Assembly (NCBI RefSeq): GCF_024171995.1
Contig: NZ_JAMTCT010000003.1
Coordinates: 1 to 64,000 of the forward strand
Reading direction: 5' to 3'
DNA: 64,000 nucleotides
Source of the DNA: Promicromonospora umidemergens
GTDB lineage: Bacteria; Actinomycetota; Actinomycetes; Actinomycetales; Cellulomonadaceae
Position numbers and translations under genes: made by a program. The notes below the pieces were generated by a model. That model saw nothing but the letters and a program-made list of their open reading frames with translations. It had not been told where the DNA came from and ran no database searches. Of this stretch, positions 1 through 56,978 are shown one piece after another; the first letter of the stretch is position 1; every line of letters starts with the position of its first letter.

Positions 1-295
1 CGATCCGGGCCAGCGTCCAGCCCAGATCCCGCCCGTGCTGGATCGAGATCCGCTCATCCAAGCTCAACCGGCGCCCAAGCCCGCCAGGACGGTCCGGATC
101 CGGCACCACCCGCAAGCTGTTACCGCCCCGACCTGACTTCAACAGTCCCATCCCGGCAGCCTGGACCCACCACTCACGGACCGTCGCGAACGACACCCCG
201 CACACCCTGAACGCCTGCAACATCGGCATCCCCGACGCCACAGCATCCAGCACTTCCCGCCGCTTGGACAACGGCCACGGATACCCAGACGGCAT
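1..295 (-). CDS. IS30-like transposase, N-terminal part only (runs off the window)
   Basis: About 98 codons are visible from an ATG at 295 (a GTG lies one codon upstream) reading toward position 1, where the window cuts the gene. The product would be the DNA-binding N-terminus of an insertion-sequence transposase. It begins with an HTH-like stretch (SKRREVLDAVASGMPMLQAF), then the segment LSLDERISIQHGRDLGWTLA, which matches the 'LT/S-x-x-ER-x-x-I-x-x-G-x-x-x-G-x-S' core of IS30-family proteins. The catalytic DDE domain would lie outside the window. Whether the element is intact cannot be judged here. An upstream in-frame TGA at 308-310 limits the N-terminus. Confidence 0.75.
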   Translation of the reverse strand, partial: MPSGYPWPLSKRREVLDAVASGMPMLQAFRVCGVSFATVREWWVQAAGMGLLKSGRGGNSLRVVPDPDRPGGLGRRLSLDERISIQHGRDLGWTLARI

Positions 296-360
296 CACAA
301 TCCCCGATCAGTCGACGTTGCACTGACCGTATGAATCCGCCCGACTTATCGACCAGCAGA

Positions 361-446
361 TTGCGGTTCGGCGCTCCACCTGACGTTTGGGTTGCGGTTC
401 GGCGCTGATGGGCGCCCACATCGACCCGCAGGTTGCGGTTCGGCGC
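361..446 (+). repeat. Cluster of three TTGCGGTTCGGCGC repeats
   Basis: Three exact copies of the 14-mer TTGCGGTTCGGCGC start at 361, 392 and 433 in the same orientation. They lie between the IS30-like transposase start and the endonuclease V gene. The same word, exact or diverged, recurs at 39961-40210. The copies are 31 and 41 bp apart, so the spacing is irregular. Function is unknown. Confidence 0.85.
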
Positions 447-484
447 GAGGCGGGCTTGCGCGAGCACCATCACCGCTGCCGCCC

Positions 485-7985: not shown

Positions 7986-8057
7986 CGGACCCGCCCTGCC
8001 CGACCCCGAAGCCCGCCCCCTCCAGCCCTCGCACGCACGACTCCCAGGAGAGCCCGC

Positions 8058-8762
8058 ATGACCACCCTCGACGTCTCGCCCGACGCCCCGCCCGACGCCG
8101 CACCCCTCCGCCGCCCCACCACACCGGCCCGGGAAGTGCCGAGCCCCGTACCGGAAAGCCCTGCGACGGTGGCCCCGGCAGCAGCAGCGCGGGCGGCGGC
8201 AGCGCCGGCTGCAACGGCCCCATCGGTGCGAGCCACCGCGCCGGTCCAGCCAGTGCCGGCCCGCCGCCCCGCCACGCCACGGATCGGGCCGGTCACCGGG
8301 CCCGGGATCGGCCGACGGCTACGCCGCATGCGGATCGGCGGCACGCCGTACCTCGAGCTGCAGAACGCGGCCGCCGCCCTCGAGGCCGTGGGCGGACGCC
8401 CCGCTCCCGAACCCGACCCCACCCTGCCCGACCCCACCGCGCAGGTGTGCCGGGTGGTCCGCGCCGCGGTGGAGGTGCTCCGCGGCGAGCGGCCGGCGGC
8501 CCAGCTCGCGCGCTGGGTCACCCCGCAGGTCTACGACCAGCTCCTGGAGCGGGGCCGGCTCATGCGGGAGGTGCGACAGAGCCGGACGCCGCGACCCAAG
8601 GCGCACGCGGCGACGGTGCGCCGCGTGCGGATGGTCCGGCTGGGCGCGTCGTCCGCCGAGGCGACGGTGATCCTCCACGACGAGGGCCGGGTGCGGGCTG
8701 CTGCCGTGCGGCTGGAGGCTCGGCGAGGCGTCTGGCGCGTGGCGGTCCTCGAGATCGGCTGA
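8058..8762 (+). CDS. Rv3235-like family protein
   Basis: The 234-residue product has a disordered Pro/Ala-rich N-terminal half (about residues 1-90) and a compact C-terminal domain: VCRVVRAAVEVLRGERPAAQ, LARWVTPQVYDQLLERGRL, then a beta-rich VRMVRLGASSAEATVIL…GRVRAAAVRLE. This is the pattern of the mycobacterial Rv3235-type family, commonly found near secA. Its function is unknown to me. GGAGAG upstream supports the ATG. No secA is present in the window, so the usual neighbour is missing or lies elsewhere. It is convergent with the kinase gene at 8800. Confidence 0.75.
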   Translation: MTTLDVSPDAPPDAAPLRRPTTPAREVPSPVPESPATVAPAAAARAAAAPAATAPSVRATAPVQPVPARRPATPRIGPVTGPGIGRRLRRMRIGGTPYLELQNAAAALEAVGGRPAPEPDPTLPDPTAQVCRVVRAAVEVLRGERPAAQLARWVTPQVYDQLLERGRLMREVRQSRTPRPKAHAATVRRVRMVRLGASSAEATVILHDEGRVRAAAVRLEARRGVWRVAVLEIG

Positions 8763-25494: not shown

Positions 25495-25910
25495 GTGTCG
25501 CCGAGCGCCGTGGCGACGTCCCAGGCATGGACGGCGGTGTCGAGGAGCTGCATGCTGAGCGCGCCTGCCGCGGTCACGTCGATGTCGAGCTCGGCGAGGT
25601 GGGCGGTGGCGTTCTCGTCGGCCGCCCCGAACGCGGCGCGCAGGGCCTCGGCGGACGCGCCCCACTCGCCGACGGCGTTCGCCGGGGTGACCTCCGGCCC
25701 TGCGTAGCTCGCCGCCTCCGCGTCGCCGGCGGTGACGGCGGCCGCGAAGCCGCGGTTCTGGCCGATCATGTGCGACAGGAGGTCTGCGAGGTTCCAGCCC
25801 TCGCACGGCGTCGCGACCCCGAGGTCACCGCGGGCCGCCCCGTCGACCAGCGGTCCGGTGTCGGCGAGTGCGCCGTCGTGCAGAGCGAGCATCTTAGAAT
25901 AAGTAAGCAT
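25323..25910 (-). CDS. TIGR03086-type metal-binding (DinB/mycothiol maleylpyruvate isomerase-like) protein
   Basis: The product is 195 residues. Its N-terminal region, ALADTGPLVDGAARGDLGVATPCEGWNLADLLSHMIGQNRGFAAAV, carries the 'TPC-W-x-x-x-x-L-x-x-H' motif of the family, and LLDTAVHAWDVATALG supplies the second His of the metal site. It is related to mycothiol-dependent isomerases, with unknown substrate. ATG 25910 is preferred; ATG 25892 is possible, and neither has a clear Shine-Dalgarno site. Its last 172 bp overlap the end of the convergent EamA frame. It is divergent from a MarR gene, its likely regulator. Confidence 0.85.
   Translation of the reverse strand: MLTYSKMLALHDGALADTGPLVDGAARGDLGVATPCEGWNLADLLSHMIGQNRGFAAAVTAGDAEAASYAGPEVTPANAVGEWGASAEALRAAFGAADENATAHLAELDIDVTAAGALSMQLLDTAVHAWDVATALGDTYRPDDSVTELVLDLARKIASRPGRSPGVFGGALAERGDDGWFDALRLLGRDPRPVG
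25893..25907. promoter_or_regulatory. Possible MarR site at the TIGR03086 start
   Basis: CTTA-GAATAAG-TAAG is an interrupted A+T-rich inverted repeat lying between the two candidate ATG codons of the TIGR03086 gene. It faces the MarR gene 55 bp away. Arms of only four bases make this weak; it is listed for its composition and position. Confidence 0.25.
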
Positions 25911-25961
25911 GCGTAGACGATACACCACGGTAGATCATATGGGGGTGGTTAGGATCGCCAG

Positions 25962-39857: not shown

Positions 39858-39960
39858 GGGGCTCATCGTAGGCAGGCGCCCCGGTCCAGAGCGGCGGCCG
39901 ACGGTGCTGCTCGGAGCCGGCCGACGTCCGGGATGTGGGCTGGCGCGATGGCGCTGGGCT

Positions 39961-40210
39961 GCGCCGAACCGCAGGTTGGTCGTCCACATCGCCGGCCACC
40001 GGCGCCGAACCGCAAGCTGACCAGGACCCTGGACGCCGAGCCGCAAGACGTTGGTCCATCACCGCACTGAGCGGCGCGAACGTTGCGGTTGGGCACCCGG
40101 CACCACGTTCAGGTTGCGGCTCGACGCCGTCCGACGAGCGGGTGCACCCGTAAGTTGCGGTTCGACGCCGTCCGACAGCCTCCGTCCACCCGCAACCTGC
40201 GGTTCGGCAC
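39961..40210. repeat. Seven-copy cluster of TTGCGGTTCGGCGC-type repeats in the 409-bp gap before moaA
   Basis: The 409-bp gap 39858-40266 contains no convincing gene. It holds seven copies of the repeat also found at 361-446. Three are on the minus strand (39961-39973, 40002-40015, 40033-40046). Four are on the plus strand (40083-40096, 40114-40127, 40155-40168, 40198-40210). Most copies have one to three changes, such as TTGCGGTTCGACGC. Plus-strand copies at 40114 and 40155 are followed by the same CGTCCGAC. The two sets face each other, so the transcript could fold into alternative stems. The promoters of moaA and the reductase gene must lie in or beside this array. Confidence 0.8.
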
Positions 40211-40266
40211 CCGCGCGGGTCTCACGCTCATCCCGGTCGCGGGCGATGCTGGTCTAGTCTCGGAAC

Positions 40267-53472: not shown

Positions 53473-53517
53473 ATCGTGAGGCTACGGCCGGACCGATTCA
53501 CAACAGGCACGCATCCG

Positions 53518-53547
53518 TTGCGCATCCAGCCACGGTTTCTTGCGCAA
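53518..53547. promoter_or_regulatory. Two TTGCGCAW sites between the arginine operon and lrp
   Basis: TTGCGCAT (53518-53525) and the perfect palindrome TTGCGCAA (53540-53547) are 22 bp apart, about two helical turns, in the 102-bp divergent gap. Lrp/AsnC proteins bind phased degenerate palindromes, so these may be the sites of the adjacent regulator. Confidence 0.45.
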
Positions 53548-53574
53548 TCGCGGGATGTACTGAACGATTCGTTC

Positions 53575-54012
53575 ATGGATGCCGTGAACCGCGCGATCGT
53601 CGGAGAGCTGCTGCGCGACGGGCGCGCCACCTACCAGGAGGTCGGCAGCGTCGTCGGGCTCTCCGCCCCCGCCGTGAAGCGGCGGGTCGACCTCATGATC
53701 GCCCGCGGGGAGATCGCCGGCTTCACCGTACGCGTGGACCCGCAGGCGATGGGCTGGACCCTGGAGGGTTACGTCGAGATCTTCTGCTCCGGCATCGTGT
53801 CGCCGGCGGTGCTCGAGCGCGACTTCGCCCCCATCCCGGAGGTGGTACGCGTCTCCACCGTGACGGGCGACGCCGACGCGATGGTGCACGTCATGGCGGC
53901 GAACATGGAACAGGTCGAGCACGTCGTCGAACGCATCCGGACCGTCACGCACGTGGTCAAGACGCGCACGGCGCTGGTGATGTCCAGGGTGGTCGACCGG
54001 CCGGGCGCCTGA
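53575..54012 (+). CDS. Lrp/AsnC family transcriptional regulator
   Basis: A 145-residue Lrp/AsnC regulator. The HTH is DAVNRAIVGELLRDGRATYQEVGSVVGLSAPAVKRRVDLMIARGEI, with the ligand-binding RAM domain after it (GYVEIFCSGIVSPAVLERDFAPIPEVVRVSTVTGDADAMVHVMA). ATG 53575 gives a start right at the conserved DNA-binding domain and has no Shine-Dalgarno site. It is divergent from the arginine hydrolase gene and probably activates it when arginine or ornithine is high. Confidence 0.88.
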   Translation: MDAVNRAIVGELLRDGRATYQEVGSVVGLSAPAVKRRVDLMIARGEIAGFTVRVDPQAMGWTLEGYVEIFCSGIVSPAVLERDFAPIPEVVRVSTVTGDADAMVHVMAANMEQVEHVVERIRTVTHVVKTRTALVMSRVVDRPGA

Positions 54013-54088
54013 CCACGACCGGCGCGGGCGCGGTACGCCTTAGGGTGTCCTAACAGGACTTTCCTGTCCCGACCGGAGGGTGCCCTCG

Positions 54089-56058: not shown

Positions 56059-56826
56059 CGCCCTCGGGATCGCCCGCCACGCGAGCGGCGAGACGCCGTG
56101 GTCCGCGGCGAACGCCCTGCTGAACGCGGCGACCGAGCCGTACCCCACCTCGAACGCGACCCGCGTGACGGCCAGGCACTGCTTGGTGAGGAGCAGGCGG
56201 GCCCGGTGCATACGCACCTCCCGCAGCATCCGCATCGGGCTGTGCCCGGTCGCGCGTCGGAAGCGATCGGTCAGCGCGGAACGGGAAAGGTGCACGAGGG
56301 CGGCCATCCGGTCGAGGTTCCACGGCTCACCCGGCCGCGCCGCGAGAGCTGCCACCACCTCGGCGACCTGCGGGTCGTCGGCCGGGCCACGCACGGCGCC
56401 CTGGTCGCCGGCCCTCTCGGGCGGAGGCGACAGAGACGAGATCGCCGCCCCGATGAGGCCCGCGTAGGCTGACGCGAACCGGTCCACCCTGCACTGCACC
56501 GAGAGCGGGCAGGTCGTCACGAGCGCGACGATGCCGCGATGCTCCTTGCCGAACCGGCGCTGGACCAGCGGGCTCGGCAGCGGCGTGGACGTGACGGACC
56601 GGCGCAGGTCCCCGTGCACGAGGTCGGTCTCGACGTCGGCGGTGAGCCGGTGCGCCGTCCGCGGGTCGACGAGCACCGCGTCCCCGGGCAGGATCGTCCG
56701 GCGGTCACCCGCCGTCTCGAGGGTCACGGCACCGGACAGGACCAGGCCCCAGAGCGCGCCGGGCCGAACCAGGCTCGCCTCAGCGGGCAGCCGCTCGCGC
56801 CGCAGCGCCGTCATCTCCCATTCCAT
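55957..56826 (-). CDS. AraC family regulator with N-terminal cupin-like domain
   Basis: The product is 289 residues. The N-terminal cupin (LSGAVTLETAGDRRTILPGDAVLVDPRTAHRLTADV) is followed by a double-HTH AraC domain: WNLDRMAALVHLSRSALTDRFRRATGHSPMRMLREVRMHRARLLL and VTRVAFEVGYGSVAAFSRAFAADHGVSPLAWR. The coding frame continues for about 30 Arg/Pro/Gln-rich residues beyond the HTH, antisense to the MFS 3' end. ATG 56826 is chosen by domain fit; ATG 56814 and longer starts exist. It is the likely regulator of the MFS exporter. Confidence 0.82.
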   Translation of the reverse strand: MEWEMTALRRERLPAEASLVRPGALWGLVLSGAVTLETAGDRRTILPGDAVLVDPRTAHRLTADVETDLVHGDLRRSVTSTPLPSPLVQRRFGKEHRGIVALVTTCPLSVQCRVDRFASAYAGLIGAAISSLSPPPERAGDQGAVRGPADDPQVAEVVAALAARPGEPWNLDRMAALVHLSRSALTDRFRRATGHSPMRMLREVRMHRARLLLTKQCLAVTRVAFEVGYGSVAAFSRAFAADHGVSPLAWRAIPRASVARYPQERPAEPRRHRRSSPDQQQRPDAVPVQ

Positions 56827-56978
56827 ACGAACCGGAGCGATGACGACGTGCCACCTATTCCCGGCGAGCCCGTCCAGCCGGGGGGAACCGGTCAACAGCC
56901 CCGCGCGCTGAGCGGACGTTCGGCATGACGGCGGAGCAGGCCGAGGCGCAACGATCACGCCCACAACCAAGCTGGGGG

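Follow-up and report, generated by a model that had tools for sequence, protein, structure and literature searches.

The short GC-rich repeats upstream of moaA in Promicromonospora umidemergens belong to a genome-wide family of intergenic arrays, which are probably multi-copy sites for a putative sequence-specific DNA-binding protein. We give this reading, drawn from geometry and conservation only, a probability of roughly 0.6. At least 34 distinct arrays were located in this genome (weight matrix, fetched loci): 34 array rows and two further arrays were found, and since two pairs of rows are the halves of arrays split by an insertion sequence (IS), 34 distinct arrays remain.

The array upstream of moaA and the shared plan

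The window, that is the whole analysed stretch of 64,000 nucleotides, contains the array next to moaA and half of a second one (Table 1). As described in the original prediction, seven copies of a 14-mer lie at 39961-40210, three reversed and then four forward, each with at most two mismatches from TTGCGGTTCGGCGC. A common flank had been noticed as well; it is CGTCCGAC, it follows the fifth and sixth copies (R2 and R3) and it is a trace of local duplication. The claim that, apart from the gap filled by the array, no gene-free stretch of the window exceeds 300 bp was not confirmed, since 7986-8327, 25495-25961, 53473-54088 and 56059-56978, for example, are also gene-free according to our custom codon-usage script, a rough caller that may miss genes.

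Table 1. Arrays, their units and neighbouring features in the window
Feature	Position	Strand	Evidence or remark
End of IS30-family insertion sequence (transposase N-terminus), abutting half array	1..341	-	inverted repeat GTTGCACTGACCG at 317-329
Second array, three forward units, core starts 361, 392, 433	351..447	+	half of IS-split array
Left neighbour, ketopantoate reductase-like (ApbA), divergent from moaA	38964..39866	-	Pfam PF02558/PF08546
Unit L3, outermost left	39960..39984	-	PWM score 29.6
Unit L2, 41 bp from L3	40001..40025	-	PWM score 22.3
Unit L1, innermost left, 31 bp from L2	40032..40056	-	PWM score 21.8
16-bp centre between innermost units	40057..40072	no strand	centre spacing 37; consensus of 50 centres
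Unit R1, innermost right, 37 bp from L1	40073..40097	+	PWM score 20.0
Unit R2, 31 bp from R1	40104..40128	+	PWM score 27.9
Unit R3, 41 bp from R2	40145..40169	+	PWM score 31.6
Unit R4, 42 bp from R3	40187..40211	+	PWM score 28.8
Right neighbour, moaA	40267..41406	+	Pfam PF06463/PF04055

Each 14-mer copy forms the core of a longer, asymmetric unit of 25 bp, whose consensus is GAC-N3-CAAC-TTGCGGTTCGGCGC. In an alignment of 174 units from P. umidemergens arrays, the motif consists of GAC at -10 to -8, A at -3 and then TTGCGG(T/C)TCG(G/A)C(G/A)C, and the spacers carry little information. The arrays follow one plan, in which reversed units are followed by a 16-bp centre and then by forward units; in the window array the weight-matrix scan gave steps of 41, 31, 37, 31, 41 and 42 bp in order. 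Over 59 array rows with 387 units from four species, same-strand steps were 30-34 or 40-44 bp in 256 of 268 cases and never 35-38 bp. Divergent steps in these rows were exactly 37 bp in 38 of 55 cases, and 14 more were 68 or 99 bp, which is 37 plus 31 or 62 bp, i.e. one or two units are missing. In arrays with a centre step of 37 bp, both arms began with a short step (28-34 bp) in 34 of 40. Further out, the steps measure about 31 or 41 bp, corresponding to three or four helix turns; the second step was alike on both arms in 15 of 28 arrays, and beyond the first step 31 and 41 bp occur without clear mirroring. Every unit has a conserved GAC/GTC at its inner end, and the consensus over 50 centres, edges included (L249 and L259 omitted), is a long palindrome around CGTC-nATC-n-GGGCCC-n-GAT-n-GACG. 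Before the subfamily, covariation, gene-context and lattice counts, the IS-split halves L238, L240 and L243 and the duplicates L274, L276, L277 and L278 were dropped; the halves at window position 361, in L053 and the second one in L056 were retained in the lattice count.

When the P. umidemergens genome was searched for the 14-mer with up to two mismatches, 394 matches were found, compared to 130 for the backward pattern. The unit including its upstream bases (at most one mismatch) gave 187 matches compared to 2 in the backward control, and the pair pattern TTGCGGTTCG-N20-40-TTGCGGTTCG gave 55 compared to none. Among the 100 matches listed (0 or 1 mismatch, of the 394), 91 fall in arrays, one of which (C25:304) is the sole unit left beside an insertion sequence. 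The nine isolated matches are located at C2:117826, C4:74041, C4:255268, C5:293570, C8:66403 and C10:61403 and on contigs C35, C46 and C47; six of them lie inside called genes, three of these in an IS3-family transposase. The listed matches do not show the equal density in coding sequence that would have refuted the original prediction. An origin as a by-product of codon usage, or by chance in a GC-rich genome, has in its favour that single copies do occur in genes, but it is refuted by the backward-pattern controls and the intergenic position of the arrays, and we consider its probability negligible. The exact 14-mer in the IS3-family transposase gene on C35, C46 and C47 is a coding exception.

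Distribution and turnover among Promicromonospora genomes

Among 200 genomes of the family, the unit is abundant only in Promicromonospora, with the 187 matches of P. umidemergens (G000) followed by 102 in P. sp. AC04 (G007), 43 in P. panici (G005) and 22 in P. soli (G006). Counts of 8 in G002 and 7 in G008 compare with 2 and 4 in the control, and the remaining family genomes are near control. A model of the centre, searched on both strands, matched 146 times in P. umidemergens, 147 in P. sp. AC04, 54 in P. panici, 16 in P. soli, 16 in G002 and 7 in G003, and 0 to 3 times in the seven other genomes of the genus; palindromic arrays match on both strands, and the array counts of P. umidemergens and P. 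sp. AC04 are lower bounds, with 150 candidates scored per genome. Arrays are many in P. sp. AC04 and P. panici and number about eight in P. soli, and none were found in several sister species. The loci behind the weak centre-model matches in G001, G004, G009, G010 and G011 were fetched and read or scanned, and none is an array; the other two of the seven genomes had no match. Because sister species live without them, the arrays are not essential to the genus.

In the array-poor G003, L284 and L301 resemble worn array centres. L301 (1500-1580) has two weak units 37 bp apart and by eye is the same locus as L058 and L253, which are full arrays in P. umidemergens and P. sp. AC04, respectively. The array family is older than the split of several species, and different species have kept or lost it, presumably together with the protein. 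As a separate observation, L286, L288 and L289 (from G011, G010 and G004) have an upstream region in common with a single unit-like site each (PWM 21.6, 16.9 and 13.3), and this region adjoins an open reading frame that reads like a sigma factor in array-free species.

The moaA gene itself is present in all 13 genomes of the genus. The interval was compared in the close relatives, and no array was found beside moaA in any of the 12 fetched loci. The same gene pair without the array occurs in G001, G002, G003 and G012, the left neighbour giving no match within the DNA fetched around moaA in the other eight of the 12 relatives. The gap between the two genes is 409 bp in P. umidemergens, compared to 54 bp in G002 and G003 (355 bp shorter), 98 bp in G012 and 124 bp in G001. 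Lone unit-like sites were found in the moaA loci of three of the 12 relatives, with scores from 9.6 to 20.3, none of them adjoining the moaA start; the site scoring 20.3 is at position 962 of L232, in the array-free G011.

Ten array loci of P. umidemergens are orthologous to array loci of P. sp. AC04, P. panici or P. soli, as judged from flanking DNA. When orthologous arrays were aligned, whole units had been gained or lost and the centre was kept. In seven of the ten shared loci, 88 of 629 strong-motif positions differed (14%) versus 203 of 448 spacer positions (45%) and 340 of 839 flank positions (41%), a contrast (Fisher p about 5e-30) that is favoured somewhat by the tendency of alignments to line up cores. 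Another process that could keep the cores similar is gene conversion between arrays. Within arrays, the similarity of L2 to L3 and of R2 to R3 was above all 2000 shuffles (n=34 each), whereas innermost neighbours were not alike beyond shuffles (L1-L2 p=0.18, R1-R2 p=0.11). As outer units resemble their neighbours and innermost units do not, the nucleus is stable and the arms grow by local duplication. The suggestion of a short-repeat family that expands locally is thus supported for the arms, in which outer neighbours are more alike within than between arrays and orthologues differ by whole units.

In P. sp. AC04, six loci (L250, L256, L258, L259, L260 and L262) form a subfamily with an extra inverted pair, CGACACGCCG/CGGCGTGTCG, in the centre; the loops inside this pair are unrelated and the rest of the arms matches imperfectly. 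G025, from another genus of the family, has the same plan with steps of 31, 31, 31, 31, centre 38 and 31 bp, and was missed by the stricter unit pattern. Its loci L356, L357 and L358 have near-perfect palindromic centres (GGTTGAATCGTT, GGATGAATCGTG and TAATGAATCGTT), in which by eye the opposite arms change together. The extra pair and these palindromic centres hint at a hairpin or a dispersal step, at least there.

In 396 genomes of the order, the pair pattern was found in 11, the own genome included, and the backward control in three with one match each. Dispersed repeats of the decamer TTGCGGTTCG with steps of 42 or 21 bp occur in Quadrisphaera sp. INWT6 (G333; L359-L361) and in Fictibacillus fluitans (L115, L116 and L136), and the three Fictibacillus loci read have the end ATGAAAATGACGTGATATGCAA in common. 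As the decamer was the search key, this match does not show kinship. No plasmid or phage relatives of the window array were found, in a search that possibly did not reach records of the own genome. The pair pattern was present in nine viral stretches, where the unit scan gave a single multi-unit cluster (L313) of reversed units with steps of 48, 48, 48, 36 and 81 bp and no dyad.

An IS30-family element inserted in arrays

The second array of the window abuts the end of an insertion sequence. The other half of this array is on contig C25, and its unsplit orthologue is L251 of P. sp. AC04. The C-terminal piece of the transposase on C25 belongs to the IS30 family (NF033563, E=9.2e-24), while the N-terminal piece alone gave just weak helix-turn-helix matches. 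In the own genome four left and three right ends of the element were found, and all seven, at ends of contigs C3, C7, C11, C13, C19, C25 and C31, abut array units. By eye, most junctions, five, are at the GGGCCC-like array centre; those of C11 and C13, which flank the same insertion, are placed between L2 and L1 in a left arm. Of the 13 genus genomes, one has the transposase N-terminus, in four copies at the same four places, and all four copies found are inserted in arrays. Unsplit orthologues exist for three of the four split arrays, namely L265 (for C11/C13) and L269 (for C19/C31) of P. panici and L251 of P. sp. AC04 (for C25/C3, the orthology on the C3 side being 124 bp at 83%). Since the located arrays occupy just a fraction of one per cent of the genome, the preference of the element for arrays is strong.

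In both P. umidemergens (L056 2505-4019, contig C19) and P. panici (L269), two arrays bracket the gene for a 316-aa protein that has an AbiEi_4 domain. The AbiEi-like protein was rejected as the cognate protein of the arrays: its family is multicopy across the genus, the array-free G008 and G012 included, and the array-rich P. sp. AC04 has no match better than 41% identity.

Probable protein-binding arrays and the alternatives

Genes were called on both sides of 56 arrays; 53 of these do not overlap any called gene, and the other three overlap by 1, 3 and 104 bp. Their gaps are tandem in 32, convergent in 17 and divergent in 7 cases, and when all neighbouring gene pairs of the array loci are counted, including those that enclose an array, 130 are tandem, 43 convergent and 39 divergent. 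Convergent gaps are mildly over-represented (17/56 versus 26/156 other pairs, p=0.03). Divergent gaps are not (7/56 versus 32/156, p=0.23), the direction being towards too few. A Pfam scan of 60 proteins encoded next to arrays gave no evident common function. Moreover, 25 of 29 flanking-gene probes mapped evenly along the single-contig chromosome of G009 (KS p=0.97, Rayleigh p=0.94), assuming that gene order is similar between this genome and P. umidemergens. Macrodomain placement was rejected from this even spread; the test concerns positions along the contig, as dnaA was not located in the first 6 kb of G009.

These data bear on the proposal of a multi-site regulator target, of which one part stands: the 37-31-31/41 lattice and the slowly changing cores fit protein binding. 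That the arrays are operators of a classical transcription regulator of the neighbouring genes, moaA included, is improbable. The window array does lie between two divergent gene starts, 56 bp 5′ of moaA. However, the family shows no excess at divergent promoters and lies between convergent, tandem and divergent genes without evident common function, the ApbA-moaA pair occurs without an array in four relatives, and in none of the 12 relatives does moaA have an array beside it. A folded RNA leader had also been suggested and is not supported. A structured RNA or terminator, with the transcript of the array forming a single long hairpin, would agree with the inverted copies in the two arms, with the paired changes in the centres of all three fetched G025 arrays and with the mild excess at convergent gaps. 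In the set of 42 arrays whose centre step is 37 bp (arrays with 68 or 99 bp, the P. sp. AC04 subfamily among them, are outside this set), however, L1 and R1 matched at 16.50 of 25 positions compared to 16.43 after shuffling (p=0.43, or p=0.41 with G-U pairs). The eight centre-facing bases matched less than shuffles (p=0.985), and L2-R2 matching was slightly above shuffles (p=0.07; p=0.08 for its next, outer, eight bases, p=0.04 with G-U pairs). In addition, the spacings of the two arms are mirrored at the first step and mixed thereafter, and Rfam gave no match in the window at the gathering threshold. Since the two arms do not co-vary, a folded RNA is very improbable.

The best rival is that the arrays originated as REP-like selfish DNA served by a transposase other than RAYT. 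They would then be miniature mobile DNA of the REP/REPIN kind, which a transposase spreads in trans and which persists mainly through its own copying, and the rigid plan would be a requirement of the transposase. The copy number is high and lineage-specific, the centres are related among arrays of P. sp. AC04 and among L044, L047 and L055 of P. umidemergens, the moaA gap is longer by the length given above than in G002 and G003, and the intergenic position with a mild convergent excess is as reported for REPs in one survey (PMC3733652). We nevertheless regard this explanation as unlikely. Matches to Y1_Tnp/RAYT (PF01797) were found in none of the 13 genus genomes, compared to five of 14 control genomes, and a RAYT-driven REPIN was therefore rejected. 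No common outer ends were seen: among the matches listed from an all-against-all comparison, the similarity between arrays at non-orthologous loci generally ended close to the outermost units. The differing loops of the P. sp. AC04 subfamily are unlike simple copying, and turnover at fixed loci takes place at the level of units.

The best reading, in our view, is a REP-like but unusually rigid family of putative protein-binding arrays. Near-exact helix-turn spacing, an asymmetric unit, a dyad nucleus, the absence of innermost covariation and slow cores are expected of DNA that is bound cooperatively by a protein. Monomers of such a protein would bind each unit on one helix face, and the inner four units, two divergent pairs mostly at 31-37-31 bp, may seat a symmetric complex that spreads outward. 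The purpose of the arrays would be at the level of the chromosome, as binding platforms or insulators between genes, and not the control of moaA. As a more tentative possibility, the arrays could be seats of a novel type of bacterial chromosome-wide nucleoprotein structure, in which a filament grows from the four-site nucleus in helical register along expandable arms, serving as insulators or anchors and being present or absent as a module among close relatives.

No earlier account of the array family was found in the literature searched, a scope that leaves aside subscription papers and preprints. Like REPs, BIMEs and REPINs (on REPINs, PMC3116915), the arrays consist of short conserved units that commonly form inverted pairs; their gaps are mostly tandem or convergent, and their copy number differs between species. 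They are REP-like in the broad sense of many copies between genes and few within genes. According to the above survey, REPs fall into GTAG and CGTC groups, REPs of REP-rich genomes lie mostly between tandem and convergent genes, and CGTC REPs have a stem of 8-9 bp, lack a dedicated transposase and are known from five phyla, none of them Actinobacteria, a word absent from the main text of that source (PMC3733652). The arrays likewise have no known transposase. Their centre consensus reads CGTC...GACG, but a stem of 8-9 bp is not kept, as the centre-facing bases match no better than shuffles. Unlike REPs and REPINs, their unit is asymmetric and not a stem-loop, as both the logo and the lack of covariation between L1 and R1 indicate, although the G025 centres are palindromic; their steps are set almost to the base pair, and the arms are long and phased. 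For a comparison with MITEs, no common ends were seen among arrays, and the intergenic DNA, in which target duplications would be sought, is not alignable. The arrays are not concentrated at promoters of related genes, as the sites of a transcription-factor regulon would be.

Other systems resemble the arrays in part. IS1655, an IS30-family element, targets the neisserial repeat dRS3, and as in dRS3/NIME arrays, intergenic short-repeat arrays serve here as insertion targets of mobile DNA. NIME arrays are not known to have a helical lattice, unlike those of Promicromonospora. ParB (parS), MatP (matS) and SlmA (SBS) bind solitary sites, for the most part palindromic, whose placement is relative to the origin or terminus. 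The arrays, like these, would be many chromosome-wide extragenic sites for one, here putative, protein, but they are multi-unit, evenly spread and missing from sister species. The ends of Tn7, bound by TnsB, and those bound by MuA consist of repeated transposase sites, asymmetric, of about 22 bp and in two inverted sets as in the arrays, in which, however, no common element ends were seen. The dRS3 unit is a 20-bp repeat with inverted ends, ATTCCC-N8-GGGAAT, and Nf1 phage inserts into dRS3 arrays (PMC3898611). For the intergenic sets of TAACTGA direct repeats in marine Beggiatoaceae a post-transcriptional role was proposed (PMC4679880). These are also many short-repeat sets in one genome whose reader is not known, but they consist of 7-base direct repeats, in contrast to a 25-bp unit with a dyad centre and helical steps.

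The IS30-family element is a clean case of a transposon of which every known copy is inside a host repeat. The usual view of dispersed bacterial repeats is that they are hairpins which a transposase moves. The Promicromonospora arrays differ from these in their helical spacing, exact almost to the base pair, in the lack of innermost covariation, in that no RAYT was found, in their slow cores and in their presence or absence among sister species. Whether repeats serve their host or themselves is an old question, which this array family makes directly testable.
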